From Tersicoccus phoenicis (GTDB lineage: Bacteria > Actinomycetota > Actinomycetes > Actinomycetales > Micrococcaceae), in contig NZ_MRDE01000072.1 in assembly GCF_001968835.1 (NCBI RefSeq), forward strand, positions 124,001 to 188,000: DNA of 64,000 nucleotides. Reading direction: 5' to 3'. Of this stretch, positions 4,701 through 44,086 are shown in pieces. The notes under the pieces are model-generated. The model searched no databases. It saw only the letters and a list, made by a program, of their open reading frames with translations, and was not told where the DNA came from. The stretch's first letter is position 1, and each line of letters starts with the position of its first letter. The position numbers were made by a program, and so were the translations under genes.

Positions 4701-5751
4701 GGGTGTCTACGGCCTGGACCTGTCGAAGTCGGCGCCGATCCAGTACCGCGTGTCCAGTTTCAACGGCTACAGCAACAGTGCGATCGACTCCACTAGCTGG
4801 ATCGCGTACAACCTGAGCCAGCCGAACGTCGCGTTCGGCAACGCGGACGGTTCCGTCCTGTTCGCCGACGTGCCGAACACGGGCCTGCCGGCCCAGCGAT
4901 CGGCCTCCGGTGGCGCGGCACAGGCGCTGTTCCTGCACCTGCACAACGCGACCGGCGACCTGTCGGCCACGGACGGCGAGAAGGCGCAGGTGGTCCCGGT
5001 CACACTGCCGGCGCCGGCGTCGCCGTCGATCCCGTCGGCCTCCACGGTGACCACTATCGATCCGGGCGGTCGCTTGTGGGCTTACCCGGCCGACGGCCGG
5101 GGCGGTGTGACGCCACGCAAGCAGATCGGTGCGGGCTGGCAGAACGCCGTGTCGACCTCGGTGGTCGACTGGAACGGCGACCAGGTGCTCGACGTCGTCG
5201 CCCAGTGGAAGGACGGCCGACTGACGGTCTACCCGGGCGTGCGGACCGGCGGGTTCGCCACTCCGGTGACCCTCGCCTCCTCCGGGTGGGCCACCAAGAA
5301 GGTTCTCGCCACCCAGTGGACACGTACCGGCGCTCCGGGAATCCTGACCATCGAGAGCAACGGTGACATGCGGTACTACCCGAACACCAATGGTCTGATC
5401 GGTGCCAGCTCGGTGATCGGGCGGGGCTGGAGCGGGTTCGAGATCTCGGACACGGACTGGGACAAGGACGGGTCCACCGATCTGGTCGCTCGCAACACCC
5501 GCGGTGAGCTTCTGGTTTATCGCAGCAACGGCGCCGGAGGTTTCCTCAATGAGGCACGTCCGGTGGTCGGTCGCGGCTGGCAGATCATGTCCGACATCGT
5601 TGCCCGTCCCGACTTCACGGGCAACGGCTCGCTCAGCGTGCTGGGCATCGACAACGCCGGGAAGCTGCGGAACTACCGGGTGGTCAACAAGGCGTTCACC
5701 ACGATGAACATCGTGGGCACCGGCTGGACCGGGTACAAGCTGAGCGAGTGA
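1729..5751 (+). CDS. Secreted subtilisin-family serine protease with PA insert and FG-GAP-like C-terminus
   Basis: This is a 1340-residue exported S8 peptidase. The N-terminus has a signal peptide (basic MKRARNR, hydrophobic core, cleavage after ATPAMA at residue 32), then a propeptide. The catalytic triad is Asp193 (VIDTGIDYTH), His267 (NGHGTHVAG) and Ser616 (GTSMATPHVAG). A protease-associated insert lies between His and Ser, as in C5a-peptidase/lactocepin-like subtilases. The C-terminal third carries repeated DxDxDG-type segments (DWNGDQVLD, DTDWDKDGSTD, DTNRDGKTD) typical of FG-GAP/VCBS beta-propeller blades that bind calcium. Start: the ATG at 1729 has a GAGGAG Shine-Dalgarno 5 nt upstream and gives a proper signal peptide. 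It is monocistronic. Confidence 0.9.
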   Translation: MKRARNRGLGRALLATLTGAALVTSFATPAMADQNSGPTPPAQGLKSQPVKATKISPRLASASGQTSVFVQFTGQGAFDRTQPVGVKRGTQKPVARVAEVKAIRASITSAARSAASAAGASTLYTTTNTIPGVALRGDAAALRALAKQANVVKITPLVPKKPSNKGTDIDTRALDSWVQKKATGEGTTIAVIDTGIDYTHTDFGGPGTAAAFAQAKASPTVPAGLYDPAKFAGGYDLVGDDYNADPSSATYQPVPKPDANPLDCNGHGTHVAGTAAGYGVNADGSTFTGDYGTLTADTVNAMRIGPGSAPKAKLVGLRVFGCDGSSDVVGSALDRVLDPNGDGDFSDRAQIVNMSLGSDWSPTDDPENAIVDNLTDQNILSVVASGNAGDSYDIGGSPGNARSSLTVANSIGSQVTLDRVDVLAPANVAGQAQGQYSANFDYNAAGVTQAQLTGTVVVPDAANKFGCQAFPAGSLTGKWVWLQWEENGSFPCGSAARFNNAEKAGATGVVLDSPRDVFDSGIAGNATIPGIQLNRTSSDKLRPAATAGTLQLRLSPDYIGTAGGASGQKDQLNASSSRGVHGSNGIIKPDVAAAGTLIGSAAVGSGNKPNVKSGTSMATPHVAGIAALVRGKYPFLTATQTKALVMNTANKDVLTADGTPYGPNRVGSGRVDALEALNSPTYAYATDDPTLTSINFGVLEVTDKPVTVTKNVTVRNNTTTAVSYAAAFRASSQVPGVAYAVPATVSVPAAASATVPITMTINDPRALAKSMDPSLETEQQGLARQFMAEAAGRLTLTAASKPVLRVPVYASVKPASAMSAGTVSFSANPTSTLVPLSGRGNTQTGFGAVVGGFQLGASSTRLPDSTAPQRDVVDLQYVGANSSVPAVAAAGGNARTDGVVNFGISTWANNPAIAASTEFDVEVDTNRDGKTDYVTFTTRQTGVDLVLAATYPVVNGKLAADPVDVRPLNGRTGETDTNTFDTNAFTLPVRAGVYGLDLSKSAPIQYRVSSFNGYSNSAIDSTSWIAYNLSQPNVAFGNADGSVLFADVPNTGLPAQRSASGGAAQALFLHLHNATGDLSATDGEKAQVVPVTLPAPASPSIPSASTVTTIDPGGRLWAYPADGRGGVTPRKQIGAGWQNAVSTSVVDWNGDQVLDVVAQWKDGRLTVYPGVRTGGFATPVTLASSGWATKKVLATQWTRTGAPGILTIESNGDMRYYPNTNGLIGASSVIGRGWSGFEISDTDWDKDGSTDLVARNTRGELLVYRSNGAGGFLNEARPVVGRGWQIMSDIVARPDFTGNGSLSVLGIDNAGKLRNYRVVNKAFTTMNIVGTGWTGYKLSE

Positions 5752-5791
5752 TCCATCCCGTGGCCCCTTCCCGGAGGGACCGCTGAACCGG

Positions 5792-5818
5792 GGGCCGGTG
5801 GCGATCAGTCACCGGCCC
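5792..5818 (+). terminator. Hairpin after the subtilase gene
   Basis: GGGCCGGTG (5792-5800) and CACCGGCCC (5810-5818) form a perfect 9-bp stem with a 9-nt loop, 40 bp after the subtilase stop and before the convergent gene. There is no T-run, which is common for terminators in GC-rich actinobacteria. Confidence 0.55.
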
Positions 5819-5853
5819 TCGGTGCTGTCCGGGATCGTCCGCAACGGTGGCGT

Positions 5854-6492
5854 TCAACGGCCACAGCTCAGCCGGCCGGACCCGGTCGTGTCCACCACTC
5901 CGGCGTCGGTCAGCTGGCGGAACCGGGTGCCGAGGACGAGGTCGACGGCCGTCCCGGACCGCTCGTCCTCCCGATAGACGGACCCGGGAAGCTGCCGCTG
6001 CACGGTCAGCGCCGCCGATCGACCCGCTCGGCCGGCGACCACGACGACGGGCGCGCGGTCCTCCACCGCGCGGTTGCCGACCGCGGTGATCTCGAGGCCG
6101 CGCTCCCGCAGCCGCGCCGCGACCGAGGCCGCCAACCCCGGCGTCGTCGTCGCGTTGAACACCCCCACCCGCACCCGGCCCGCCGCCGCCGGCACCACCG
6201 GGTCGATCGGGCAGCCGGCGGCGTCCACGGTGGGCCGGGGTGTTGCGGACGCGGACGTCGACGGCGCGGACGCGGGGAACGGACGGTATCCCTGCACCAT
6301 GGCCAGCACCAGGACCAGCGCCGAGCCGAGCACCACCAGCGTCAGGACCAGCACCAGGCCGTGCAGCAGCCGGTGACGGTGCCGGTTCCGTTCCCGCTCG
6401 GGCTCATCGGCCCGCAGGATGCGGTGCAACTCCTCGCTGGTGACGATGTGGTGACCGTGCAGGTCCAGAGGGTCGCGCGGCCGTCGCGCCAC
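5854..6492 (-). CDS. LytR_C-domain membrane protein
   Basis: The protein has 212 residues. A basic cytoplasmic N-terminus (with ARRPRDPLDLHGHH) is followed by one transmembrane helix at about residues 45-68 (HGLVLVLTLVVLGSALVLVL). A Ser/Thr/Ala linker leads to an extracellular LytR_C domain (RVGVFNATTTPGLAASVAARLRERG). This domain is known as the C-terminal accessory module of LytR-CpsA-Psr ligases, but the catalytic LCP domain is absent here. GTG 6492 was chosen because AAAGG lies just upstream and the protein then begins at the conserved region. It follows the small gene at 6543 on the same strand with a 50-bp gap, a pairing common in Actinobacteria. Role in the cell envelope is inferred. 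Confidence 0.75.
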   Translation of the reverse strand: MARRPRDPLDLHGHHIVTSEELHRILRADEPERERNRHRHRLLHGLVLVLTLVVLGSALVLVLAMVQGYRPFPASAPSTSASATPRPTVDAAGCPIDPVVPAAAGRVRVGVFNATTTPGLAASVAARLRERGLEITAVGNRAVEDRAPVVVVAGRAGRSAALTVQRQLPGSVYREDERSGTAVDLVLGTRFRQLTDAGVVDTTGSGRLSCGR

Positions 6493-6542
6493 GGGGGCCG
6501 CCTTTCTGCCGTCGGTCCGGCTTCGTGGACCTTCGGTCCGTT

Positions 6543-6842
6543 TCAGTCCTCGATCTCGAGCACGCGGGCGTGCATCACCGCCCGCCGGTGCAGGGCCGAG
6601 CGGACCGCTCGGTGCAGGCCGTCCTCGAGGTACAGCTGCCCGCGCCACTTGACCACGTGCGGGAACAGGTCGCCGTAGAAGGTGCTGTCCTCCGCGAGCA
6701 GGGCCTCCAGGTCCAGGGTCCGCCGGGTGGTGACCAGCTGGTCGAGGCGCACCTGGCGCGGAGCGACCGCGGCCCAGTCCTTCGGTGTGGCCAGGCCATG
6801 GTCCGGATAGGGTCGGCCCTCACCGACCGCCGCGAAGATCAT
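6543..6842 (-). CDS. Small conserved actinobacterial protein, often labelled VapB-like antitoxin
   Basis: This is a 99-residue protein with the segments VRLDQLVTTRRTLDLEALL and LYLEDGLHRAVRSAL. The second resembles the ParB/sulfiredoxin-like fold (DGxHR). Homologues are conserved beside LytR_C-domain genes in many actinobacteria and are often auto-annotated as VapB-family antitoxins. No toxin gene is present beside it here, so a toxin-antitoxin role is unsupported. Its ATG sits 6 nt after TAGCAT on the minus strand, so the mRNA is probably leaderless. Function unknown. Confidence 0.7.
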   Translation of the reverse strand: MIFAAVGEGRPYPDHGLATPKDWAAVAPRQVRLDQLVTTRRTLDLEALLAEDSTFYGDLFPHVVKWRGQLYLEDGLHRAVRSALHRRAVMHARVLEIED

Positions 6843-6848
6843 TGGACC

Positions 6849-6854
6849 ATGCTA
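6849..6854 (-). promoter_or_regulatory. -10 box (TAGCAT), leaderless promoter
   Basis: On the minus strand TAGCAT ends 6 nt before the ATG at 6842, so transcription should begin at or within a base of the start codon. Confidence 0.5.
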
Positions 6855-6961
6855 GGCACAGCCCCGACCACGGTGCCTCTCGCGCGGGGTCCGGGGCCCG
6901 CTGTCCGGGACGAGGCGTCAGGTCCGAGGCCCACTGCACGGACCGAGCGCGGGCGGGCTGC

Positions 6962-6967
6962 CACACT
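6962..6967 (+). promoter_or_regulatory. -10 box (CACACT), leaderless promoter
   Basis: CACACT ends 7 nt before the ATG at 6975, and no Shine-Dalgarno is present. Confidence 0.4.
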
Positions 6968-6974
6968 GGTGCCC

Positions 6975-7877
6975 ATGGACATCGCCCCTCCCTTCGCGTC
7001 CTCGCCGGCCCCGTTCGGTCTCCTGCTCGACGTGGACGGGCCGATCGCCAACACGGTGACCCGCACCATCGAGGTCGAGAGCATCGTCACCGACCTGGTG
7101 GCTCTGGGCAACACGGGGATCCCGCTGGCCTTCAACACCGGCCGCTCCGCCGAGTTCCTGCAGCGCGAGGTGACCCCACGCCTGCGGGACGCCGGCATGG
7201 ATCCGCGAGCGCGACTACACGCGATCGGGGAGAAGGGCGGCACCTGGTTCAGCTCCGGGGAGCCGAGCGGAACGGTGCACGTCGACGAGTCGGTGCGACT
7301 GCCCGCGCTCATCACCGACCTCGTCCGGCCGTTACTGACGGGCCGGTACGGCACCCACATGTTCCTGGACGAGGGCAAGCTGGCGATGGTGACCCTCGAG
7401 CAGTCGACCGCCGTGACCAACGACGCCTACCTGAGCGTGCAGGCGGACTTCGACGCGGAGCTGCTCGCCGCCCTGACCCACGCGGGCATCGGCTGGATCC
7501 ACGAGGTGTACGACCGGCGGTTCCACCCCGACGAGCAGGGCAACACACCGGTCCGGGTCGAGCCGACGATCATCTCCACGGACATCCAGCACGAACGGTC
7601 GGGCAAGGCACTCGGGGCGGAGCGCGCCCTGGAACTGTTTGACGACGACGGGCCGCTGCCGCGGCGGTGGTACACGGTGGGCGACACCCCGTCGGACTAC
7701 GCGATGGCCGACTGGCTGCACGAACGCGGTCACGACGTCGTGCACGTGGACGTGCGGCCGGTGCCGCGCCGGGAGGACCCGCCCTACCCGGTGGAAGCCG
7801 TGGATGATGTCGAACCCGACGTCGCGGCCGCCCGCTTCCTGCGCGAGCGGGTGGCGGAGATGCGACTGGGCAGCTGA
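6975..7877 (+). CDS. HAD-superfamily hydrolase
   Basis: This is a 300-residue cytoplasmic protein of the haloacid dehalogenase superfamily. Motif I is LLDVDGPI (about residues 17-24) with the two catalytic aspartates. Motif II is FNTGRS (about 53-58), and motif IV is VGDTPSDYAMADWL near residue 235, supplying the Mg2+ ligands. The middle part is a large cap region, as in Cof/sucrose-phosphatase-like members. Substrate cannot be told from the sequence. It stands alone, divergent from the 6543 gene, with about 120 bp between them. Start: ATG 6975 follows a -10-like box by 7 nt; an upstream in-frame extension would read into the divergent promoter. Confidence 0.75.
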   Translation: MDIAPPFASSPAPFGLLLDVDGPIANTVTRTIEVESIVTDLVALGNTGIPLAFNTGRSAEFLQREVTPRLRDAGMDPRARLHAIGEKGGTWFSSGEPSGTVHVDESVRLPALITDLVRPLLTGRYGTHMFLDEGKLAMVTLEQSTAVTNDAYLSVQADFDAELLAALTHAGIGWIHEVYDRRFHPDEQGNTPVRVEPTIISTDIQHERSGKALGAERALELFDDDGPLPRRWYTVGDTPSDYAMADWLHERGHDVVHVDVRPVPRREDPPYPVEAVDDVEPDVAAARFLRERVAEMRLGS

Positions 7878-14429: not shown

Positions 14430-16058
14430 ATGGAACTGACCACCCTGCTCCTCCTGCTCCTGGCTTCGCTCGCCGTGACCGCCGTGGCCCGGCGGCTGAA
14501 GTTCCCCGCCCCGCTCCTGGTCGTCGCCGTCGCTCTCGCCGCGTCGGCCGTCCCCGGACTGCCCGACTTCCGGTTCGACTCCGAGGTCATCCTCACCATC
14601 GTGCTGCCGCCGTTGCTGTACTCGGCCGCCCTGGACATCTCCTATCAGGACTTCCACCAGTCGCTCCGCCAGATCACCAAGCTCGGGATCGGCCTCGTGG
14701 CGGTCACCGCCGTCGTCGCCGGTCTGATCGCGTTCTGGATCGTCCCCGAGTTGACGCTGCCGGCAGCCCTCCTGCTCGGGGCGATCGTCGCCCCTCCCGA
14801 CGCCGTCTCGGCGGCCGCGATCGGCAAGAAACTGGGCCTGCCCCGGCGCGTCATGACGGTGCTCTCCGGCGAGTCCTTGATCAACGACGCCGCCGCCCTG
14901 ACCCTGTTCAAGGTCTTCCTCGCCGGGGTGGCCCTGCCCACCCGCGCCGGTGAAGGGATAGCCACCTTCGTCATCGCCGTCGTCGTCGGCATCCCAGTCG
15001 GCCTGGCGCTGGGTTACATCGTGCATCTCGTCCGGGCCCGGCTGAACGATGCCGTCATCGAGACCGTCCTCAGCCTGCTGTTACCCTTCGTCGCCTACAC
15101 CGCTGCCGATCAGCTCGGTGGCTCCGGCGTGCTCGCCGCCGTCGCCGCCGGTCTGTTCGTCGGCTACCACTCACCGCGCTCCGGGTACGCGACCCGGTTG
15201 CAGGAGCAGCCCATCTGGGCGGCCACCGATGTGCTTCTGGAAGCCTTCGTCTTCGCGCTCATCGGGCTGCAACTGCCGGGCGTCGTCGAGGAGGCGGCCG
15301 ACAGCTCCGAGGGGCTGTGGCCTTCCGCCGTCGTCGCCCTCGTCCTGTTGGCCGTGTGCCTGCTGGTTCGACCGGCGTTCGTGTTCGGCACCGAGCTGAT
15401 CGGCCGCCGGCTGCCCTCCCGACGTCGGCAGGACCGCCTCACCTGGCAGGAGACCACCGTGGTCTCCTGGACCGGCATGCGCGGCGTCGTCACGCTCGCC
15501 GCGTCGGCGTCGGTACCCCAGACCACGGCCACGGGCGAGGCCTTCCCCGGCCACAGCACCATCGTCATCACCGCGTTCACCGTCACGGTCGGCAGTCTGC
15601 TGCTGCAGGGGCTGACTCTGCCCTGGCTGATCCGCCGGATGGGCGTCGCAGACCCGGGCCGGAGGCGCCGGCAGCTGGCCGCCGAGCTGGTCGTGTTCGA
15701 ACGGACGACCGACCGGGCGCTGGCGCACCTGCACGATCACCGTGACCAGTGGGACGCTCGGTACGGTCGTCAGAAGACCGATCAGTTCATCGGGCGCCTG
15801 GAGCAACTGGCCCGCGACCGCACCGGTCAGGTGCGGTCGGCCGTCGACGCGGAGGAGGAGTCGGCGACCGCGTCGGCGACCGCGGCAGCGGCGTTCGAGG
15901 GGCTGCGCCGGGACCTGCTCCGGATCCGCCGCGACGTGCTGATGGACGAGCGCGACGCCGGCACGATCGACGACGAGGTGATGCGGCAGGTGCTGCTCGA
16001 GATCGACGCAGAAGAGCTCGCCATGGACCACTCCTGGCTCGCCCGGATGCGGTCATGA
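14430..16058 (+). CDS. CPA1-type Na+/H+ antiporter
   Basis: This is a 542-residue monovalent cation:proton antiporter. About twelve hydrophobic helices fill the first 410 residues. The ion-binding region contains LPPLLYSAALDI, APPDAVSAAAI and SGESLINDAAALTLFKV, as in NhaP/YjcE-type proteins, and the conserved GMRGVVTLAAS lies near residue 350. The last 130 residues form a charged cytoplasmic tail rich in Arg/Asp/Glu with helical character. ATG 14430 is preceded by GGGAGGCGCC. Its stop overlaps the next start (ATGA), so the two are cotranslated. Confidence 0.85.
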   Translation: MELTTLLLLLLASLAVTAVARRLKFPAPLLVVAVALAASAVPGLPDFRFDSEVILTIVLPPLLYSAALDISYQDFHQSLRQITKLGIGLVAVTAVVAGLIAFWIVPELTLPAALLLGAIVAPPDAVSAAAIGKKLGLPRRVMTVLSGESLINDAAALTLFKVFLAGVALPTRAGEGIATFVIAVVVGIPVGLALGYIVHLVRARLNDAVIETVLSLLLPFVAYTAADQLGGSGVLAAVAAGLFVGYHSPRSGYATRLQEQPIWAATDVLLEAFVFALIGLQLPGVVEEAADSSEGLWPSAVVALVLLAVCLLVRPAFVFGTELIGRRLPSRRRQDRLTWQETTVVSWTGMRGVVTLAASASVPQTTATGEAFPGHSTIVITAFTVTVGSLLLQGLTLPWLIRRMGVADPGRRRRQLAAELVVFERTTDRALAHLHDHRDQWDARYGRQKTDQFIGRLEQLARDRTGQVRSAVDAEEESATASATAAAAFEGLRRDLLRIRRDVLMDERDAGTIDDEVMRQVLLEIDAEELAMDHSWLARMRS

Positions 16059-16975
16059 GGCCGCTCACGCTCCTGACCGCGCCGGACGGCGAGCAGCGGG
16101 CCGCCGCGCACCGGAACCGGGCCGCCCGGTACACCGTTGCGCACCGGGAGCGCCGCTCCGCCGGGGTGAAACACCCGGTCGAGGACTTCCTCTTCACCTA
16201 CTACGCCCTCACCCCCGGCCGGCTCGAACGCTGGCACCCCGGGGCCGGCGTCGTCGTCACCGGTCGGTCGGCCACCGAGCGGGCCGGTTGGAGGGACTAC
16301 CGGTCACTGGACGTCGCGGAGCGAGCCGGGCTGGGCTTGACCGCGGACGAGCCGGCCGTGACCGTGGACGTGGACGGCTTCCTGACCCGGCGGTCGGTGA
16401 CCGTCGCCTTCGTCGGGCGGCTGTTGCGCTCGACAGCGTCGCGGCCCGGTCAGTTCGGCTGCTTCGGCCTGCATGAGTGGGCGATGGTGTATCGGCAGGA
16501 CGCGGGCGACCGGAGGCATGAGGCGCTGCCCCTGCGGCTGGGCGCGGCGGGCACGGACGCCGTCGTCGAGTCCCACCGGCTCCGCTGCACGCACATCGAC
16601 GCGTTCCGCTTCTTCACCGACGAGGCGGTGCCGCGCAACGAGCTGCACCCCACGCGGGAGCGGCAGGTCGAACTCGACCAGCCCGGCTGCCTGCACGCCA
16701 CGATGGACCTGTACAAGTGGGCGTACACGCTGCTGCCGGTGGTCCCCGGTGAGCTGGTGCTCGACTGTCTGGACCTCGCGGCGGACGTGCGCGAGATCGA
16801 CATGCGGGCCTCCCCCTACGACCTCACCGGACACGGCCTGACCGCTGTGCCGATCGAGACGCCCGCGGGCAAGGGGGAGTACGTGGCAGCCCAGCGCGGA
16901 TTCGCCGACCGGGGGGCCGAGCTGCGGCAGCGCCTGCTGGCCGCACTGGATTCGCTGGCGGCGTTCGTGCGGTGA
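16055..16975 (+). CDS. Conserved actinobacterial protein (often labelled 3-methyladenine DNA glycosylase)
   Basis: The product has 306 residues and contains HPVEDFLFTYYALTPGRLERWHPG near residue 35, CFGLHEWAMVYR near 135, RCTHIDAFRFFTDEA near 175 and HATMDLYKWAYTLLPVVPGELVLDCLDLA near 215. This family is widespread in Actinobacteria and commonly carries the label above, but no helix-hairpin-helix glycosylase core is visible to me, so the enzymatic role is unproven. Its ATG overlaps the antiporter stop (ATGA at 16055-16058), implying translational coupling. Confidence 0.65.
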   Translation: MRPLTLLTAPDGEQRAAAHRNRAARYTVAHRERRSAGVKHPVEDFLFTYYALTPGRLERWHPGAGVVVTGRSATERAGWRDYRSLDVAERAGLGLTADEPAVTVDVDGFLTRRSVTVAFVGRLLRSTASRPGQFGCFGLHEWAMVYRQDAGDRRHEALPLRLGAAGTDAVVESHRLRCTHIDAFRFFTDEAVPRNELHPTRERQVELDQPGCLHATMDLYKWAYTLLPVVPGELVLDCLDLAADVREIDMRASPYDLTGHGLTAVPIETPAGKGEYVAAQRGFADRGAELRQRLLAALDSLAAFVR

Positions 16976-34397: not shown

Positions 34398-34653
34398 GCT
34401 TCGCACTCAGATCTCCCTGACTGTGGAAGAGCGGCGACTCCTGGACAGGGAGGCTGCGCGCACAGGTCGCTCGATCTCCGCACTGATCCGCGATGCCGTG
34501 TCCAGGACCTACGGCCCCGGGGGAGATGTCGACGCTGATTTCCGAGCCATCGATGCCGCGCTCGGCGCCTGGGGTGACCGCGACCTCGACGGCGAAGCGT
34601 ATGTCGAGCGCTTGCGCTCGGCGAACCGGTTGGAGCAGGCAGTTGCACGATGA
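34396..34653 (+). CDS. vapB: VapB-like ribbon-helix-helix antitoxin
   Basis: This 85-residue antitoxin begins MLRTQISLTVEERRLLDREAARTGRSISALIRDAV, a ribbon-helix-helix DNA-binding domain. The C-terminal half is acidic then basic and should wrap the toxin. ATG 34396 was chosen because a -10 box ends 6 nt before it; two upstream ATGs (34372, 34381) lie before that box. The stop overlaps the toxin start (ATGA). No other mobile marker is nearby, but AT-richer bases just upstream fit a transferred module. Confidence 0.82.
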   Translation: MLRTQISLTVEERRLLDREAARTGRSISALIRDAVSRTYGPGGDVDADFRAIDAALGAWGDRDLDGEAYVERLRSANRLEQAVAR

Positions 34654-35027
34654 CGGTCGTCGTCGACACGTCGGTGTTGGTCGATGTGCTCCGAGGAGAG
34701 TCGGCCGCGGCTTCCGTTCTCCGCAAGGCGCGTGAGTCCGGCCATCTGCATGCAAGCGAGGTGACCAGACTGGAAGTGCTGGCCGGGATGCGTGCTCGCG
34801 AGGAGGATGCGACCCGAGCGCTGTTCGGTGCCTTCGTGTGGCATCCGGTGGACGAGAGGATCGCCGAGATCGCTGGTGAACTCGGACGACGGTGGCTGCC
34901 CGGCAATCGCGGCATCGACTCGGCAGACCTCGCCATCGCCGCCACCACCATCGCCCTCGACGCCCGGGTGTTCACTCGCAACATCAAGCACTTCCCGATG
35001 TTCGGCGAGCTGTCTGCGCCGTATTGA
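34650..35027 (+). CDS. vapC: VapC PIN-domain toxin
   Basis: The 125-residue toxin is a PIN-domain ribonuclease that cleaves specific RNAs (tRNA or rRNA in studied cases). The acidic Mg2+-binding residues are present in VVDTSVLVDVL (Asp6), ASEVTRLEVLAGM (Glu about 42), and the C-terminal GIDSADLAIAATTI (two Asp near 92-95) plus FTRNIKHFPMF. The active site looks intact, so the toxin is probably functional. It overlaps vapB by 4 bp. Confidence 0.88.
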   Translation: MTVVVDTSVLVDVLRGESAAASVLRKARESGHLHASEVTRLEVLAGMRAREEDATRALFGAFVWHPVDERIAEIAGELGRRWLPGNRGIDSADLAIAATTIALDARVFTRNIKHFPMFGELSAPY

Positions 35028-36305: not shown

Positions 36306-37121
36306 TCAGTCGCCGTTCGGGGCGGGAACGAGCGTGCGGGACGTCGTCAGGCGCCGGTTGCGCAGCACGGGGAGGAACTCGCGGACCTCGTCGATCCGCC
36401 GCCGCGTCACGTCGACCGTCACCAGACCCTGTTCCTCGTCCTCGAGGAAGTCCTGAGGCACGCCCATCGGGTCGATGATCGCCGAGTGGCCGATGGTGTG
36501 CCCGCTGGCCGTGCCCGCGGCGGCCACCCAGCAGGTGTTCTCGATGGCCCGCGCCTTCAGCAGCGTCTCCCAGTGGTCGACCTTGTGGTCACCCTTGAAC
36601 CACGCCGACGGCACCGCGATCAGGTCGGCGCCCTCCTCGGCGAGCACCCGCGCGACCTCGGGGAAGCGCAGGTCGTAGCAGGTCATCACCCCGATGTTCA
36701 GGCCACCCAGATTGACGTTCTTGGGGCCGTCGTCGCCCGCGGCGATGCGGCTGGACTCCCGGTACGAGAACGCGTCGTACAGGTGCAGCTTCCGGTAGGT
36801 CTCCACCACCCGGCCCTCGGCGTCGACGACGACGAGCGTGTTGTACGGCCGGTGGTCGCTGGAGGGTTCGTATCCACCGGCGATGACGGCGATCTGCAGG
36901 TCGCGCGCGAGGAGAGTGAGGTCGCGGACGAAGGTGGACCAGTGCGCGGCGACCGCGGCGGCGAGGTCGCCGTCCACCTTGCCGATGCTGAACATCGACT
37001 CCTCGGGGAAGATGACCAACGCGGCGCCGTCGTCGTGGGCCCGCTCGGCCAGCGAGCGCATCACCGCGAGATTGGCGCCCACCGACCCCGACGGGTTGAA
37101 CTGACCGACGCTGACCAGCAT
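36306..37121 (-). CDS. Carbon-nitrogen hydrolase (nitrilase superfamily)
   Basis: This 271-residue hydrolase has the Glu-Lys-Cys triad of the superfamily: FPEESMFS (Glu about 42), YRKLHLYDAFSYRES (Lys about 113) and VMTCYDLRFPEVARVL (Cys about 150). The pattern fits the Nit/omega-amidase group that clears deaminated glutathione or alpha-ketoglutaramate, but the substrate is not proved. ATG 37121 has GGAGGAGGA just upstream. A TACTGT -10 box lies at 37158-37163. Confidence 0.85.
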   Translation of the reverse strand: MLVSVGQFNPSGSVGANLAVMRSLAERAHDDGAALVIFPEESMFSIGKVDGDLAAAVAAHWSTFVRDLTLLARDLQIAVIAGGYEPSSDHRPYNTLVVVDAEGRVVETYRKLHLYDAFSYRESSRIAAGDDGPKNVNLGGLNIGVMTCYDLRFPEVARVLAEEGADLIAVPSAWFKGDHKVDHWETLLKARAIENTCWVAAAGTASGHTIGHSAIIDPMGVPQDFLEDEEQGLVTVDVTRRRIDEVREFLPVLRNRRLTTSRTLVPAPNGD

Positions 37122-37157
37122 GTGTCCTCCTCCTCCTCGAGCTCGGGGACTGCTCCC

Positions 37158-37163
37158 ACAGTA
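37158..37163 (-). promoter_or_regulatory. -10 box (TACTGT) of the nitrilase-DUF1990 unit
   Basis: On the minus strand TACTGT would give a leader of about 30 nt before ATG 37121. The rest of the 37122-37355 gap shows nothing I can name. Confidence 0.4.
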
Positions 37164-37355
37164 GAGGATGCCCGTGAGACGCAGCTGCAGGCGAACCCCC
37201 GGCGAGCGGCGGCATCCGCGGTGGCGTCGGGCCGACCGGCGGCGCGTCGAGGCTGATGGGGTCAATCATCATCGGGAGGTCGGTATGAGCGATCCGCCAT
37301 CCGCGGCAGCCGTGTTCGCAGCGGCCGAGAACGGCGTCCGGAACGGCCCAGCAGA

Positions 37356-38075
37356 TCAGGCCGGGTCCTGGTGCAGCAGGGCGACGTCGGACACCAGATC
37401 GATGTGCTCGAGCATCATCGCTGCCGCCGCAGCGGGATCCTTGGCCCGGACGGCGTCGGCGATCTTGCGGTGGGAGGCGAGTGACTGCTCCGGCCGGCCG
37501 GGCTGTCCCAACGATTCGAGCCGTGTCTCGAGGATCATCCCGGCGATGAAGGTCATGAGCTGGGCCAGTACGCCGGAATGCGCGGCGGCGGTGATGGCCC
37601 GGTGGAACAGTTCGTCGCCGTGGGCCCCTTTGCTGCCGGACGCGACCTCTGCCGCCATCACGTCGAGTGCCTCGTCGATCGCCTGCAGGTCTTCGTCGGT
37701 GCGGCGTTCGGCGGCAAGCTCGGCCAGCTTGACCTCGAGCGTGCTGCGAGCCTCGACGATCTCGGGAAGCCGGCTGTGGTGCTCACGCAGCCCCCTGAGC
37801 ACGGAGGGGACGTTGGGGCGGTAGACGAGTACCGCCCCGGTCCCGTGCTGGACGTCGATCACCCCGAGAACTTCCAGGGCGACCAGCGCCTGGGCGAGCG
37901 TGGCGCGCGAGACGCCCAGCCGCTCGGCCAGGTCCCGCTCGGCGGGCAGGGTGTCCCCCGGCCCGAGCTCCGCGGACTCGACGTAGTCCATCAGCTGCTC
38001 GACGAGCTGTTCATAGAGTCGGGGCCGAGCGACACGGGAGATCTGTTGCGTCGGCGTCTTCCTGGTCACGCGCAT
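37356..38075 (-). CDS. GntR/FCD-family transcriptional regulator
   Basis: This 239-residue regulator has an N-terminal winged helix (RLYEQLVEQLMDYVESAELGPGDTLPAERDLAERLGVSRATLAQALVALE, in pieces at about residues 19-68) and a C-terminal FCD ligand domain with helix AHGDELFHRAITAAA supplying metal/ligand-binding His and Asp. It is divergent from the MatC-like carrier, so it probably controls that cassette and itself. It resembles MatR-type regulators in position. ATG 38075 has AAGG close upstream. It is not one of the leaderless genes. Confidence 0.87.
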   Translation of the reverse strand: MRVTRKTPTQQISRVARPRLYEQLVEQLMDYVESAELGPGDTLPAERDLAERLGVSRATLAQALVALEVLGVIDVQHGTGAVLVYRPNVPSVLRGLREHHSRLPEIVEARSTLEVKLAELAAERRTDEDLQAIDEALDVMAAEVASGSKGAHGDELFHRAITAAAHSGVLAQLMTFIAGMILETRLESLGQPGRPEQSLASHRKIADAVRAKDPAAAAAMMLEHIDLVSDVALLHQDPA

Positions 38076-38096
38076 CCTTCCCGAGGTCGTCCGGCC

Positions 38097-38102
38097 AGTT
38101 TA
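38097..38102 (-). promoter_or_regulatory. -10 box (TAAACT) of the gntR gene
   Basis: On the minus strand TAAACT lies about 22 bp before the gntR ATG, with TGACTT 16 bp further upstream as a possible -35. Confidence 0.4.
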
Positions 38103-38124
38103 GCCGCGGGTCTTGACGAAGTCA

Positions 38125-38165
38125 CCTGGTGTCCAGGAGGCTAAGCCAGTGGATCTGTAATCCAC
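38125..38165. promoter_or_regulatory. Two inverted repeats, probable GntR operators, over the matC promoter
   Basis: CCTGG-TGT-CCAGG lies at 38125-38137 and GTGGAT-CTGTA-ATCCAC at 38149-38165. The second covers TGTAAT (38156-38161), the best -10 candidate for the matC transcript. Centres are 26 bp apart. They are the obvious binding sites for the divergent GntR protein, but which one it uses is inferred. Confidence 0.5.
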
Positions 38166-38205
38166 CTCACATCAAATCTCGCCCCGCTCTCACCTCGGAA
38201 GAACG

Positions 38206-39603
38206 ATGTCCGCTCCTGTCCTGTCCATCATCGTCCTGGTGGTGATGTTCCTGCTGGCCACGTTCCTACCACTCAACATGGGCGCCCTCGCTTTCGTGGG
38301 CGCCTTCCTGCTCGGCTCGGTGGTCCTGGGGATGTCCACCAGCGACATCCTCGCCAACTTCCCCGGCGGCCTGTTCCTGACCATCGTCGGCGTCACCTAT
38401 CTCTTCGCGATCGCTCAGAACAACGGAACAATCGACCTGCTGGTCCGCGGCGCAGTCCGGATGGTGGGCAGCAAGGTCGCGCTCATCCCCTGGGTCATGT
38501 TCGTCATCACGGCAGTCATCACCGCCGTCGGAGCCCTGTCTCCGGCCGCCGTCGCGATCATCGCCCCGATCGCCCTCAGCTCCGCTGCCAAGTACCGGAT
38601 CAACCCGCTGATGATGGGCATGATGGTGATCCACGGCGCACAGGCCGGCGGCTTCTCGCCCATCTCCGTCTACGGCGTCACGGTCAACGGCATCATCGCC
38701 AAGACGGACCTACAAGCCAGCCCGATGGCGATCTTCCTTGCCAGCTTCATCTTCAACCTCGCCATCGCCATGGTGCTCTTCATCGTGCTGGGCGGCAGCA
38801 GACTGCTCCTCACCCGGACCGGCCAGCTCGTGGAACAGGCCGCCGAATCCCGCATGGCCGTGAGCGTCGCCTCCCGGGCCGCCGGTGTCACCCTGCAGGG
38901 CTCCGGTTCGGACATCTCGGCCGCCGGCGTCGCCCGCAAGGGAACCTCCAGCGTCCCCGCAGCCGATTCGGCTGCCGACTCCCCCGAAGCCGCCGGCTCT
39001 CGGGCCACCTTCGCTCAGGTGATCACCATCGCCGGCCTGATCGTCCTCGCCGTCATCTCCCTCGGCTTCAAGGTCGACGTCGGATTCGTCTCCATCACCA
39101 TCGCCGTCATCCTGGCCCTCGTCTCTCCCGCGGCGCAGAAGGGCGCGGTGAACAAGATCAGCTGGTCCACGGTCCTGCTCATCTGCGGCATGCTCACCTT
39201 CGTGGGCGTCCTCGAGGAGGCCGGCACCATCACTTTCGTCTCGGACGGCGTCGCCCAGCTCGGGATGCCGCTGCTGGCGGCCCTACTGATCTGCTACATC
39301 GGCGCCATCGTCTCCGCCTTCGCCTCCTCCACCGCCATCCTGGCTGCCCTCATCCCGTTGGCCGTCCCGTTCCTGTCCACCGGTGAGATCGGTGCCGTTG
39401 GCGTCATCGCGGCGCTGGCGGTCTCCGCCACCATCGTGGACGTCTCGCCGTTCTCCACCAACGGCGCTCTGGTCCTCGCCAGTGCCCCGGAGAACGTGGA
39501 CAAGGACCGGTTCTACAAGCAGATCCTGGCCTACAGCGGCATCGTCGTGGTTGCCGGCCCCGCCATCGCTTGGCTGGTCATGGTCCTTCCCGGCTGGATG
39601 TAG
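38206..39603 (+). CDS. matC: MatC-like dicarboxylate (malonate) carrier
   Basis: This 465-residue membrane permease of the MatC/SLC13-like group has about twelve hydrophobic helices. The N-terminal MatC domain includes SIIVLVVMFLLATFLPLNMGALAFVGAFLLG, NFPGGLFLTIVGVTYLF and GALSPAAVAIIAPIAL in pieces. MatC of rhizobia imports malonate. A hydrophilic loop rich in Ala/Ser near residues 215-265 separates the halves, and FSTNGALVLASAPENVDKDRFYKQI-type motif is near the end. ATG 38206 has GGAAG upstream. It begins a three-gene run with a CoA-transferase and a carboxyltransferase. Confidence 0.8.
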   Translation: MSAPVLSIIVLVVMFLLATFLPLNMGALAFVGAFLLGSVVLGMSTSDILANFPGGLFLTIVGVTYLFAIAQNNGTIDLLVRGAVRMVGSKVALIPWVMFVITAVITAVGALSPAAVAIIAPIALSSAAKYRINPLMMGMMVIHGAQAGGFSPISVYGVTVNGIIAKTDLQASPMAIFLASFIFNLAIAMVLFIVLGGSRLLLTRTGQLVEQAAESRMAVSVASRAAGVTLQGSGSDISAAGVARKGTSSVPAADSAADSPEAAGSRATFAQVITIAGLIVLAVISLGFKVDVGFVSITIAVILALVSPAAQKGAVNKISWSTVLLICGMLTFVGVLEEAGTITFVSDGVAQLGMPLLAALLICYIGAIVSAFASSTAILAALIPLAVPFLSTGEIGAVGVIAALAVSATIVDVSPFSTNGALVLASAPENVDKDRFYKQILAYSGIVVVAGPAIAWLVMVLPGWM

Positions 39604-39671
39604 CCGTCCGGATATCGCCGTTTCCGGGCCTGTACCGGCCGCCCCCTCCGACCAAGAGAAGGAACACCAGC

Positions 39672-40925
39672 ATGAGCCACGAATCCACACCCCAGCCCGA
39701 AGGGCCCCTCGCCGGCTACCTCGTGGTGGACTTGAGCCGAGCCCTGGCCGGGCCGCACGCCGGCATGATGCTCGCCGACCTCGGCGCACGCGTCATCAAG
39801 ATCGAGAACCCCGGCACCGGAGACGACACCCGCGGTTGGGGACCGCCGTTCGTCGGCCCCGACGACGACCCGCAGGCCACCTATTTCTTCTCGTGCAACC
39901 GCAACAAGGAGTCCATCGCCCTCGACCTCAAAAGCGACGACGGACGGACGATCCTGCGCGAGCTGCTGGAGCGGGCCGACGTCGTGATCGAGAACTTCCG
40001 GCCCGGCGTGCTCGATCGGCTCGGATTCTCCGCCGCTGACATGCACGCGATCAACCCCGCCCTCGTGATCCTGTCCATCACCGGGTTCGGTCACGACGGC
40101 CCCGAATCACGGCGCAGCGGCTACGACCAGATCCTCCAGGGCGAGGCCGGGCTGATGTCCCTGACCGGCTCCGGGCCGGACGATCCGCAGCGCGTGGGTG
40201 TGCCCATCGCCGACCTGCTCTCCGGCATGTACGGGGCGTTCGGCACGCTCGCGGCGCTGCTGGAGCGCGAACGGACCGGGCAAGGTCAGATCGTGCGGAC
40301 TTCGCTGCTGGCAGCGTTGGTCGGCGTGCACGCGTTCCAGGGGACACGCGCCACCGTTGCCGGCGAGGTCCCCCAGGCACAGGGCAACCACCACCCCTCC
40401 ATCGCACCCTACGGCCTGTTCCACTGCCGCGGGGGGAGCGTGCAGATCAGCGTCGGCAGCGAGAAGCTGTGGCGCACATTCGCCATCACGTTCGGCATCG
40501 ACGCCGACCGCCCGGAGTTCTCGTCCAACGCCGAGCGGGTCCAGAACCGGGACCAGGTCATCGAAGAGGTGGAACGCGTCTTCGCCAACTACGAGGCAGA
40601 GCCGCTCCTCGCGCTGTTGAACGAAGCAGGGATCCCCGCCGGCAAGGTCCGCACCCTGGACGAGGTCTACGCATGGGACCAGGTGCACTCCCAAGGCCTG
40701 GTGATCGACGTCGACCACCAGGTCCTCGGCAACGTCACCCTTCCGGGCCCGCCACTGCGCTTCTTCAGCACCGCGGACACCGCGGAGACCACGCTGAAGG
40801 CTCACACAGCGCCGCCGCTGCTGAACCAGAACGGCGATCAGGTCAGGCAGTGGCTCGGGCTGCTCCCGACGGACGACGACGGCGGCACCTCCGAGTCCGC
40901 CGACGCCGACGAGCGAGGCCGTTGA
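39672..40925 (+). CDS. Class III CoA-transferase (CaiB/BaiF family)
   Basis: This 417-residue enzyme should move CoA between carboxylic acids. Signatures are VVDLSRALAGPHAGMMLADLGARVIKIENP (in parts; catalytic Asp expected near DLSRALAGP/FDMILQG-type region), FFSCNRNKESIALDLKS, VVIENFRPGVLDRLGF and GYDQILQGEAGLMSLTG, where the Asp of YDQILQG matches the family nucleophile. Context suggests dicarboxylate activation, for example malonate from acetyl-CoA or succinyl-CoA. ATG 39672 follows GAAGGA. The next gene starts 2 bp after its stop. Confidence 0.87.
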   Translation: MSHESTPQPEGPLAGYLVVDLSRALAGPHAGMMLADLGARVIKIENPGTGDDTRGWGPPFVGPDDDPQATYFFSCNRNKESIALDLKSDDGRTILRELLERADVVIENFRPGVLDRLGFSAADMHAINPALVILSITGFGHDGPESRRSGYDQILQGEAGLMSLTGSGPDDPQRVGVPIADLLSGMYGAFGTLAALLERERTGQGQIVRTSLLAALVGVHAFQGTRATVAGEVPQAQGNHHPSIAPYGLFHCRGGSVQISVGSEKLWRTFAITFGIDADRPEFSSNAERVQNRDQVIEEVERVFANYEAEPLLALLNEAGIPAGKVRTLDEVYAWDQVHSQGLVIDVDHQVLGNVTLPGPPLRFFSTADTAETTLKAHTAPPLLNQNGDQVRQWLGLLPTDDDGGTSESADADERGR

Positions 40926-40927
40926 GC

Positions 40928-42505
40928 ATGAGCGCACCCCAGCAACGCCGCCACCTGAACGCCACCGAACTGATCTCCACCGTGCTCGATCCCGAATCCT
41001 TCCGATCCTGGGACTCGCCCGTGGCTGATCCCGACCCCAGCCCCGAGTACCGGCAGGAGCTCGCGGCGGCCCGGGAGAAGACCGGCGTGGACGAATCCGT
41101 CCTCACCGGGGAGGGCCTGTTCCGCGGCCGGCGGGTGGCCGTCGTCGTCAGCGAGTTCCGGTTCCTGGCCGGCTCGATCGGCCTTGCCGCAGCGGAACGC
41201 GTCGTGAACGCCGTCGAACGGGCCACCCGGGAAGGGCTTCCGCTCCTCGCCGGTCCGGCCTCGGGTGGCACGCGCATGCAGGAAGGCACTACCGCATTCC
41301 TGTCCATGGTGACCATCACTGCGGCGGTCCGAGCCCACCGGCAGGCCGGCCTGCCGTACCTGGTCTACCTCCGCCACCCCACGACCGGTGGGGTCATGGC
41401 CTCCTGGGGTTCGCTCGGGCACATCACCGTCGCCGAGCCCGGCGCCCTCCTCGGATTCCTGGGGCCCCGGGTCTACGAGGCGCTTCACGGAGAACCGTTC
41501 CCGGAGAACGTCCAGATGGCCGAGAACCTCTTCGACAAGGGCCTCGTGGACGCTGTGGTGTCGCCGGGGCAGCTGCCCGACATCGTCGACCGCGCCCTGA
41601 GCATCCTCGTCGCCGGGCCGCCCCCGCAGGTCAGGCCACCCCGGACGCTGACCGTGGGACCGTCCGACGCCGGAGCCTGGGATTCGATCGCGATCTCCCG
41701 GAACCCCCGCCGCCCCGACCTGCGGCAGTTGCTCGCCTACGGGACCCGCGATGCGCTGCCGCTCAATGGCACCGGGCAGGGGGAGAAGGATCTAGGGCTG
41801 CTTCTGGCACTGGCCCGCTTCGGCCAGATGTCCTGCGTGGTGCTCGGACACACCCGTCCCCGTCCCTCGCAACAGACCGCCATGGGCCCGGCCTCACTGC
41901 GCGAAGCCCGCCGCGGCATGCGGCTGGCCGAGGAACTCGGCCTGCCCCTCGTGACGGTGATCGACACCGGCGGCGCCGCACTGTCCAGGGAGGCCGAGGA
42001 AGGCGGGCTTGCCGGCGAGATCGCACGATCCCTCCACGATCTCATCGGCCTGGACTGCCCCACGGTGTCCGTCCTCATGGGCCAGGGCACCGGAGGCGGG
42101 GCCCTGGCCCTGTTCCCGGCCGACCGCACCATCGCAGCACAGCACGCCTGGCTGGCCCCGCTACCACCCGAAGGCGCCAGCGCCATCGTGCACCGCAGCA
42201 CCGAGTTCGCCGCGGACGTGGCCGAGGCTCAGGGCGTCGACGTCGCCTCGCTCCACGCTCACGGAATGGTGGAGCACATCGTGGACGAACGCGGCGGCGC
42301 AGCCCTCGAGGGACGGGCCTTCTGCCAGCGGCTGGGCCAGGCCATCGAATACGAACTGGCCCAGCTCTCCTCGTCCGACCTGGCCGAACTCATGCCGCGA
42401 AGGCTCGAGAAATACCGCAACGTCGGGGCGCTGATGGGGTCACACCGGGCCTCCCGGTGGATGAACTCGGACCTTGCGCATCGTGAGGCCCGGCAACGAA
42501 GGTAG
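40928..42505 (+). CDS. Fused acetyl-CoA carboxylase-type carboxyltransferase (beta-alpha)
   Basis: This 525-residue protein joins an AccD-like half (FRFLAGSIGLAAAERVV, ASGGTRMQEGTTAFLSM, PTTGGVMASWGSLGHITVAEPGALLGFLGPRV in parts, about residues 75-200) to an AccA-like half (ARRGMRLAEELGLPLVTVIDTGGAALSREAEEGG and MGQGTGGGALALFPADRT, about 320-400). The four-cysteine zinc ribbon of bacterial AccD is absent. No biotin carboxylase or biotin carrier is in the window. MdcD/MdcE of malonate decarboxylase are homologous carboxyltransferases that act as decarboxylases, so a malonyl-CoA decarboxylase role is a reasonable inference. It follows the CoA-transferase by 2 bp. Confidence 0.83.
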   Translation: MSAPQQRRHLNATELISTVLDPESFRSWDSPVADPDPSPEYRQELAAAREKTGVDESVLTGEGLFRGRRVAVVVSEFRFLAGSIGLAAAERVVNAVERATREGLPLLAGPASGGTRMQEGTTAFLSMVTITAAVRAHRQAGLPYLVYLRHPTTGGVMASWGSLGHITVAEPGALLGFLGPRVYEALHGEPFPENVQMAENLFDKGLVDAVVSPGQLPDIVDRALSILVAGPPPQVRPPRTLTVGPSDAGAWDSIAISRNPRRPDLRQLLAYGTRDALPLNGTGQGEKDLGLLLALARFGQMSCVVLGHTRPRPSQQTAMGPASLREARRGMRLAEELGLPLVTVIDTGGAALSREAEEGGLAGEIARSLHDLIGLDCPTVSVLMGQGTGGGALALFPADRTIAAQHAWLAPLPPEGASAIVHRSTEFAADVAEAQGVDVASLHAHGMVEHIVDERGGAALEGRAFCQRLGQAIEYELAQLSSSDLAELMPRRLEKYRNVGALMGSHRASRWMNSDLAHREARQRR

Positions 42506-42531
42506 ACGGTCCCGGCCGTCGTGGCGTTGCC
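42492..42531. terminator. Nested hairpin between convergent carboxyltransferase and purA genes
   Basis: GGCAACG (42492-42498) pairs with CGTTGCC (42525-42531), and inside it GACGG (42505-42509) pairs with CCGTC (42516-42520). The stem starts inside the last codons of the upstream gene and can act on both strands. Confidence 0.6.
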
Positions 42532-42542
42532 CCGGACCGGCG

Positions 42543-43829
42543 TCAGCCGATCAGGTCGTGGACGACGATCGTTTGCTCGCGGTCCGGGCCCACCCCGATC
42601 GCGGAGAACCGGGTACCGCTCATCGCTTCGAGCGCCGACACGTAGGCGCGGGCGTTGGCCGGCAGGTCGGCGAGGGACCGGGCACCGGAGATGTCCTCGG
42701 TCCAGCCGTCGAAGTACTCGAACACGGGCTTGGCGTGGTGGAACTCGGTCTGCGTCACCGGCATCTCGTCCTGCCGGACCCCGTCGACGTCGTACGCCAC
42801 GCACACCGGGATCCGGTCGATGCCGGTCAGCACGTCGAGCTTGGTCAGGAAGTAGTCGGTGAAGCCGTTGATGCGGGAGGCCTGCCGGGCCAGCACGGCG
42901 TCGTACCAGCCGCAGCGCCGGGGCCGGCCGGTGTTCACGCCGTACTCACCACCGGTCTGCTGCAGGCGGGTGCCCATCTCGTCGAACAGTTCGGTGGGGA
43001 ACGGTCCGGCGCCGACGCGGGTGGTGTAGGCCTTGATGATGCCGACCACCCGGTCGATCCGGGTCGGCCCGATGCCGGAGCCGACGGACGCCCCACCCGC
43101 CGTCGGGTTCGAGGACGTCACGAACGGGTAGGTCCCGTGGTCGACGTCGAGGAACGTCGCCTGGCCGCCCTCCATCAGCACGACCTTGCCGGCGTCGAGC
43201 GCGTTGTTCAGCACATGCGTGGTGTCGACCATCATCGGCCCCAGCCGATCGGCGAAGGACCGGAAGTACGCGACGGTCTCCTCGATGTCGACGCTGCGCC
43301 GGTTGTACAGCTTGACCAGCAGTTCGTTCTTCTGCCGCAGCGAACCCTCGACCTTCTGCCGCAGGATCGACTCGTCGAACACGTCCTGCACCCGGATGCC
43401 GAGCCGGCCGATCTTGTCCATGTACGCGGGCCCGATCCCGCGGCCGGTGGTGCCGATGGCGCGTTTGCCGAGGAACCGTTCGGTGACCTTGTCCATGGTC
43501 TGATGGAACGGCGCCACCAGATGCGCGTTGGCGGAGACGAGCAGTCGGGAGGTGTCGGCGCCGCGGGCGGCCAGCCCGTCGATCTCCTCGAACAGTGCCT
43601 CGAGGTTGATGACGACGCCGTTGCCGATCACGGGCGTCACGTTCGGGGACAGGATGCCGGCCGGGAGGAGCTTCAGTTCGTACTTCTCGCCGCCGACGAC
43701 GACGGTATGCCCCGCGTTGTTGCCCCCGTTGGGCTTGACCACGTAGTCGACGCGCCCGCCGAGCAGGTCCACCGCCTTGCCCTTGCCCTCGTCGCCCCAC
43801 TGGGCCCCGACCACGACGATCGCTGGCAT
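42543..43829 (-). CDS. purA: Adenylosuccinate synthase
   Basis: PurA couples GTP hydrolysis to making adenylosuccinate from IMP and aspartate, the first committed step to AMP. The 428-residue length is normal. Signatures are [18 protein letters not shown] (residues 5-22 region), [10 protein letters not shown], the catalytic His in that stretch, [13 protein letters not shown], and [15 protein letters not shown] 43829 has AAGGAG 8 nt upstream. It is transcribed alone from TAGACT at 43939-43944 through a leader of about 100 nt with a strong palindrome. Confidence 0.96.
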
Positions 43830-43885
43830 CGGATCACTCCTTCGTTGCGATGCAGTGACGCCGGTGCCGCCCGGCGGCCACATGA

Positions 43886-43935
43886 GAAAGCCCCTCGTAC
43901 GCTGCGGGATCCCGCAGCCCGGGGGCGCTTCGCAG
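43886..43935 (-). promoter_or_regulatory. Structured purA leader with an 18-bp perfect palindrome
   Basis: GCTGCGGGATCCCGCAGC at 43901-43918 is a perfect palindrome. In the minus-strand leader it forms a 7-bp hairpin enclosed by GCCCC upstream and GGGGC downstream, followed by TTTCTC. It may be an operator or an attenuator; no known riboswitch class matches. Confidence 0.45.
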
Positions 43936-43938
43936 CCG

Positions 43939-43944
43939 AGTCTA
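43939..43944 (-). promoter_or_regulatory. -10 box (TAGACT) of purA
   Basis: On the minus strand TAGACT would start transcription near 43931, about 100 nt before the purA ATG. A tandem repeat begins about 32 bp upstream of it. Confidence 0.4.
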
Positions 43945-43975
43945 CCGGAGCGACTCGCGCGTCGAGCTCGTCTGC

Positions 43976-44048
43976 GTCGCACCCCGTCGCACCCCGTCGC
44001 ACCCCGTCGCACCCCGTCGCACCCCGTCGCACCCCGTCGCACCCCGTC
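43976..44048 (+). repeat. Tandem 10-bp repeat, 7.3 copies, between purA and DUF72 genes
   Basis: The unit ACCCCGTCGC is repeated six times perfectly at 43981-44040 with partial copies at both ends. It lies just upstream of the purA promoter and 40 bp before the promoter of the divergent gene. Copy number is likely to vary by slippage. Confidence 0.9.
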
Positions 44049-44086
44049 CACGGTACGTGCCGCACCGGCGACGGGCGCTCTGGGAG

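Follow-up and report, generated by a model that had tools for sequence, protein, structure and literature searches.

Two bacterial architectures for malonate use come closest to the locus described here. In the malonate decarboxylase complex Mdc (MdcA–MdcC–MdcD–MdcE), a transfer step precedes decarboxylation on a carboxyltransferase-type enzyme, and MdcD–MdcE also acts on free malonyl-CoA in vitro, less efficiently than human malonyl-CoA decarboxylase (MCD) (PMC5534430). In MatABC, and in fused MCD–MatB systems with the MadLM carrier, malonate is imported, converted to free malonyl-CoA by an ATP-using synthetase and decarboxylated to acetyl-CoA by a PF05292-type enzyme, with a GntR-type regulator alongside. 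Here we analyse a 64-kb stretch of Tersicoccus phoenicis contig NZ_MRDE01000072.1 (hereafter the window; the whole assembly comprises 3.21 Mb in 132 contigs), in which four genes are confirmed at 37356–42505: a GntR/FCD regulator, a MatC-type carrier, a class III (CaiB/BaiF) CoA-transferase, hereafter CaiB, and a fused AccD–AccA-like protein, hereafter CT. All four were found by Pfam family, where a first-pass annotation of the window had placed them. We moderately favour the reading that they form a self-contained mobile unit for malonate use, in which the carrier is predicted to take malonate in, CaiB would move CoA from acetyl-CoA or succinyl-CoA onto malonate, and CT would convert the resulting malonyl-CoA directly to acetyl-CoA and CO2.

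Such a route would follow the order of steps in Mdc. With acetyl-CoA as donor, it would on balance turn malonate into acetate plus CO2 as malonate decarboxylase does, with free CoA replacing the special carrier protein, and the use of malonyl-CoA by MdcD–MdcE in vitro is a further parallel. It differs from Mdc in that a class III transferase stands in for MdcA, that one fused protein nearer AccD/AccA takes the place of MdcD/MdcE, and that no acyl-carrier protein (ACP; MdcC) or prosthetic-group family is seen among the four genes, for which no dedicated search was made. From MatABC and MCD–MatB, with which it would share import, free malonyl-CoA, a GntR-type regulator and the acetyl-CoA product, it would differ by CoA transfer as opposed to an ATP-using synthetase, and by a carboxyltransferase-type protein as opposed to a PF05292 decarboxylase. 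The MCD locus L080 holds a GntR-type gene, fused MCD–MatB, MadL and MadM, whereas the cassette has a MatC-type carrier; MadM relatives also occur in L081–L083. The earlier statement that matA and matB are absent holds in that PF05292 has no match in the genome, and for MatB it holds among the four genes, no dedicated model having been used and the rest of the genome not having been searched; the window's sole MCD–MatB relative, a stretch of 25% identity around 25–26 kb, does not lie beside the cassette. No MdcD passes the curated cut-off in this genome or in any of 149 family genomes, of which 32 hold CT at E ≤ 1e-60, 9 hold PF05292 and none holds both; genus g20 includes both kinds, with CT in two genomes (G020, G091) and MCD in two others (G048, G071).

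The neighbourhood search that the first-pass annotation called for, run with one genome per species and reaching close relatives only, yielded 70 loci encoding a CT relative, most of them spanning 8 kb per side and some shorter; these are not equivalent to 70 genomes because some organisms hold two loci. The complete four-gene set is present in 43 of the 70, which rules out chance adjacency, and CaiB lies immediately upstream of CT on the same strand in 58. In the remaining 12 (L025, L029, L039, L041, L050, L057, L059, L060, L062, L063, L064 and L065), the L029 contig ends 35 bases upstream, CaiB lies downstream in L041 and is in two pieces in L060, and L057 and L059 carry it on the opposite strand, kilobases away from CT. 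CaiB at a minimum of 55% identity over more than 300 aligned residues is present in 60/70 loci. Among plasmid-collection matches with at least 50% identity (L100, L101, L102, L109, L121 and L122), CaiB is upstream of CT in all but L101. The cassette genes travel together among soil actinobacteria as a real unit. Locus titles are actinobacterial in all but L036 (WNZI01000003.1), which is titled Vibrio cholerae strain 35D; its flanking genes cluster with Arthrobacter loci, and the contig is probably mislabelled or contaminated. A phylum-wide sample of 396 genomes gave deeper CT relatives (43–47% identity), of which 11 of 12 were examined: six of these loci have CaiB (L132, L133, L135, L136, L140 and L141), and L139 has a CaiB fragment at the contig end.

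Neither of two same-genus genomes (G015 and G045) has CT at E ≤ 1e-60. In G015, a short stretch occupies the place of the cassette (Table 1); in G045, the right flank alone aligned in the stretch read. Window positions 37374–42426 match Arthrobacter globiformis L003 at 85% at the nucleotide level, the cassette genes have 86–88% DNA identity to G009 compared with 82% for purA, and in the tree Arthrobacter/Pseudarthrobacter sequences are the companions of the window CT (SH-aLRT 98). The CT of L003 (strain NBRC 12137) is 89% identical to that of the window. Recent transfer would explain both the higher identity of the four genes and the placement of CT in the tree. Judging by these comparisons, the cassette is horizontally mobile and was gained as one unit.

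CaiB matches PF02515 over 1–364 of 366 model positions, and Asp152 of its GYD motif, the putative catalytic Asp of the class III family, is invariant in 61/61 CaiB sequences, the window included. Its nearest solved relatives (query P0002) include human succinate–hydroxymethylglutarate CoA-transferase and YfdE. It falls under the cut-off of all seven curated CoA-transferase-family models listed, the best score being 322 of 750 bits. The class III CaiB of A. tumefaciens transfers CoA from succinyl-CoA or acetyl-CoA to glutarate (PMC7645780). The window protein has the family and the GYD Asp, and would have the dicarboxylate chemistry, in common with the class III dicarboxylate CoA-transferases SUGCT, A. 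tumefaciens CaiB and YfdE; it differs in its sub-cut-off model scores and in having CT as genomic partner. We predict that it is a malonate CoA-transferase.

Malonic acid and urea are the end products when pyrimidines are broken down oxidatively by way of barbiturase and ureidomalonase (PMC3758960). In 6/70 loci, a barbiturase relative (at least 88% identity) accompanies CaiB and CT, four of them from Rhodococcus (L054, L066, L067 and L070) and two from Aeromicrobium (L057 and L059). These loci, whose gene families were scanned on L067, also hold PucR, an NCS2 permease and XdhC, with an amidase too in the four from Rhodococcus. The AtzD-family hydrolase of L067 scores 800.6 bits against the solved barbiturase 5hwe, compared with 326.5 for the top-scoring cyanuric acid hydrolase; an assignment as cyanuric acid hydrolase, for which it passes the NCBIfam cut-off (477 of 360 bits), was rejected because it is far nearer the solved barbiturase. 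On L121, an Embleya megaplasmid, a barbiturase relative (74.7% identity) lies ~1.2 kb behind the CaiB–CT pair. This sharing of loci with a pathway ending in malonate supports malonate as substrate: in three lineages, the pair sits where malonate should arise. Together with the MatC-family carrier, it lends weight to the malonate link that the first-pass annotation had proposed. Of the two Aeromicrobium loci, L057 and L059 (Aeromicrobium sp. PE09-221; 3796–7591 and 15820–16755), the barbiturase cluster of L059 includes AllH, AllG, a CoA-ligase-domain protein (an oxamate-carbamoyltransferase-like set) and an amino-acid-kinase-family protein, which suggests a variant with phosphate-dependent splitting of ureidomalonate into malonamate and carbamoyl phosphate. 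A similar-looking kinase gene, judged by its first residues only, adjoins the barbiturase of L121.

CT consists of an AccD-like part (residues ~11–227) followed by an AccA-like part (~250–503). It scores 172.6 bits against the curated AccD model (cut-off 317.45) and 154.8 of 300 and 153.5 of 357 bits against curated AccA models, reaching none of these cut-offs, compared with 49 of 278 bits for MdcD and 28 bits for MdcE. In alignment A1, the AccD and MdcD models both match 45/45 members, with best E values of 1.1e-57 and 1.1e-15, the member-by-member ranking being shown for the window CT only. On these scores, CT was rejected as a fused MdcDE and appears to be a carboxylase that was converted separately, which corrects the Mdc parallel drawn in the first-pass annotation. 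The predicted structure (pTM 0.88) aligns best to AccA chains (9m70_D, Z 36.0, r.m.s.d. 1.8 over 257 residues) and AccD6-type carboxyltransferases (4l6w_A, Z 31.8, r.m.s.d. 2.7 over 388), consistent with the carboxyltransferase fold of acetyl-CoA carboxylase (ACC) and PCC. MdcD/MdcE are not among the 50 structural matches listed, which is uninformative either way.

The fold, the domain order and the SGG and GG motifs are common to CT and bacterial AccD–AccA, including the fused Pseudonocardia and Collinsella forms. The zinc-ribbon pattern CxxC…CxxC is found in 0/70 CT loci (L029 is unsure, its contig beginning 11 codons upstream) as opposed to 9/10 carboxylase controls; in the tenth, from Peribacillus, the first two cysteines are in frame just before the annotated start, and that start is probably misannotated. 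Thirteen CT positions, picked by eye and numbered by P0001 (one higher than the count from the ATG), were counted on 71 cassette CTs, 11 deeper relatives, 9 others and 10 carboxylases. At ten of them, carboxylases are uniform (9 or 10 of 10) and 64–71 of the 71 cassette CTs have another letter: Thr116, Trp161, His166, Leu179 and Tyr184 in the AccD half, and Leu353, Ser354, Leu362, Gly390 and Pro412 in the AccA half. Residues fixed in 10/10 carboxylases are altered, for example, from Asp to His166 (69/71), Gly to Ser354 (71/71), Ser to Gly390 (71/71) and Val to Pro412 (70/71). Positions 389 (variable in the cassette), 409 (Trp in 71/71 but variable in carboxylases) and 415 (Pro in both) are not diagnostic. 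RN[FY]GM occurs in 7/10 carboxylases and 0/71 cassette CTs, and the loop that bears RNFGM has 20 residues in 10/10 carboxylases and 14, six fewer, in 61/71 cassette CTs. Trp161 and Gly390 are conserved in all 11 deeper relatives and His166 in nine, while Leu179, Tyr184 and Leu353 are not shared. Cassette and deeper CTs make up a single clade (SH-aLRT 100), separate from the carboxylases (100); nine further fused proteins (33–41% identity) branch outside, and all nine agree with the carboxylases at 166 and 390. Those nine (L142–L144, L146–L150 and L105) are fused AccD–AccA-like proteins without the zinc-ribbon pattern, and the neighbours of L148–L150, by their first residues only, look like a B12-binding mutase subunit and succinyl-CoA synthetase.

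Several findings weigh against a direct, biotin-free decarboxylase acting on malonate-derived malonyl-CoA. The changed CT positions, located in both halves and picked by eye, may reflect divergence only, and the comparison with MdcD/MdcE is one of curated model scores. That no genome has both CT and MCD is weak evidence (p = 0.11, with 1.9 such genomes expected), and mutual exclusion was dropped as proof for that reason. Four of the ten carboxylase controls (E. coli, Anoxybacillus, Listeria and Peribacillus) are without a biotin carboxylase (BC) gene in the 2–8 kb read, and three BC-like genes lie elsewhere in the Tersicoccus genome. The barbiturase linkage covers three lineages only, with CaiB kilobases from CT in L057 and L059. 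Aromatic clusters (L102 and L090) and clusters of amidase and M20 amidohydrolase (L042 and similar) hold the pair and are not plainly malonate-linked, and no CaiB was found along with CT in L025, L039, L050, L062–L065 and L101.

The alternative that survives best, which we consider unlikely, keeps the pathway and makes CT biotin-dependent: the carboxyl group of malonyl-CoA would be passed to an AccBC protein encoded elsewhere and then released as bicarbonate or CO2. The fold of CT would suit this, the three BC-like genes make a biotin carrier in trans possible, and one of them, an AccBC-like gene (590 amino acids) on contig C101, has a C-terminal biotinyl domain; the four controls without a BC gene in the stretch read are bona fide split carboxylases. 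However, an MmdA/PccB-type carboxyltransferase (score against mmdA 734 bits, under the cut-off) lies ~5 kb from the AccBC-like gene on C101 and is its likelier partner, the zinc ribbon is lost in 70/70, and the residues fixed in carboxylases are changed. Moreover, when biotin carboxylase and the biotin carboxyl carrier protein (BCCP) were sought by tblastn, with two queries for each, neither was found in 70/70 CT loci, whereas a biotin carboxylase gene is a neighbour in 4/4 fused carboxylase controls (L103, L104, L107 and L145); for split controls the figure is 2/6 (L118 and L120). The C101 genes, and the two same-genus genomes without CT at E ≤ 1e-60, also led us to reject CT as a housekeeping carboxylase. 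The earlier remark that no biotin partner lies in the window is borne out by tblastn, which detected neither biotin carboxylase nor BCCP relatives in the 64 kb, yet the missing gene is weak evidence alone because BC-like genes lie elsewhere and four of ten controls are alike in this respect. The broader biotin-free claim gains indirect support from the absent zinc ribbon and the changed positions.

Returning to the preferred malonate route, its substrate could instead be a different 1,3-diacid, for example methylmalonate or another substituted malonate, in which case propionyl-CoA or a homologue would be formed. We regard this as rather improbable: the MatC-type carrier and the barbiturase linkage favour plain malonate first, even though the genomic contexts are varied and methylmalonate would be the expected analogous product when thymine is degraded oxidatively. 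Among these contexts, L102 (a Rhodococcus sp. USK13 plasmid) has proteins annotated as hydroxyphenylpropionate hydroxylase, VOC and fumarylacetoacetate-hydrolase family around the pair, and L090 has an FAD hydroxylase and an alpha/beta hydrolase beside CaiB and CT; perhaps a ring-cleavage route ends in malonate here. Amidase, M20, a DUF5058 membrane protein and an AsnC-type regulator occur in varying subsets in L042, L028, L084, L085, L087 and L100, the last a plasmid typed as conjugative, and our guess is that such clusters may free malonate from amides or from N-malonyl amino acids. An amidase and hydantoinase A and B lie ahead of CaiB–CT in L136, which L133, L135, L141 and L122 (Nonomuraea) resemble, as judged only from gene order and the first residues. 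Behind CT in L062 comes an AMP-binding acyl-CoA synthetase, which would be an alternative way to the CoA thioester.

That CT is an anabolic acetyl-CoA carboxylase subunit making malonyl-CoA, with CaiB turning malonyl-CoA over to malonate, is very improbable: its best curated matches are AccD and AccA, albeit far under their cut-offs, but fused ACCs beside polyketide or fatty-acid genes retain the zinc ribbon and biotin carboxylase and form a separate clade, the cassette holds a carrier and a local GntR gene, and the genome has another carboxylase.

On the comparative evidence, the pathway of CoA transfer and CT decarboxylation suggested in the first-pass annotation is thus supported. We further propose, tentatively and with confidence a little short of even, that the cassette constitutes a third malonate architecture, an ATP-, ACP- and biotin-free two-enzyme cycle whose CT was converted independently of MdcD/MdcE, and which, in Rhodococcus, Aeromicrobium and Embleya, would also complete the oxidative degradation of pyrimidines by using up the malonate formed after barbiturase. 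There is a fair chance that it represents a separate evolutionary route to biotin-free decarboxylation. If so, malonate decarboxylation could be far simpler than ATP-dependent MatABC or multi-subunit Mdc with its special prosthetic group, the carboxyltransferase of an acetyl-CoA carboxylase can turn decarboxylase, and the last steps of the uracil/barbiturate pathway would be supplied. No description of the CaiB–CT pair was found in the open-licence literature, papers under other licences being outside the search. Public annotation of the plasmid records names CT a 'carboxyl transferase domain-containing protein' and CaiB a 'CoA transferase'; the present reading would give this widespread actinobacterial pair a function that can be tested. 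The cassette could also serve as a compact part for engineering malonyl-CoA pools.

Table 1 Coordinates of the cassette and its surroundings in the window
Feature	Position	Strand	Details
Carbon-nitrogen hydrolase, left flank	36306–37265	−	
Segment replaced in G015	37171–42531 (5.4 kb)		627 bp instead (L114 4718–5344), flanks colinear
GntR/FCD regulator, divergent	37356–38075	−	Pfam PF00392 + PF07729
Promoter/operator-like box between GntR and carrier genes	38113–38148	+	TTGAC-N21-GGCTAAGCCA
MatC-type dicarboxylate carrier	38206–39603	+	PF07158 MatC_N 197 bits (cut-off 23), CitMHS
Class III CoA-transferase CaiB	39672–40925	+	PF02515 (CoA_transf_3) 394 bits
Fused AccD-like + AccA-like CT	40928–42505	+	Pfam Carboxyl_trans + ACCA; predicted malonyl-CoA decarboxylase
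purA, right flank	within 42543–44051	−	

The CaiB start is taken as the ATG at 39672, which is preceded by a purine-rich stretch; a longer listed open reading frame opens at TTG 39570. CT starts 2 bases past the CaiB stop. Both flanking genes look unrelated to the cassette. The GntR/FCD protein is likely the local regulator of the cassette, which it may control through a conserved box in the intergenic region with the carrier gene. The strict form of this box, TTGAC-N(20–24)-GGCTAGGCC, occurs in 31 of 42 GntR–carrier intergenic regions, with a spacing of 21 bases in 27 and of 24 bases in 3; the relaxed form occurs in 32, and even this is missing from the other 10. The window box is the relaxed variant GGCTAAGCC at 38113, present as a single copy in the 64 kb. 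Further to the left, a PIN-domain (VapC-like) protein is encoded at 34650–35027.

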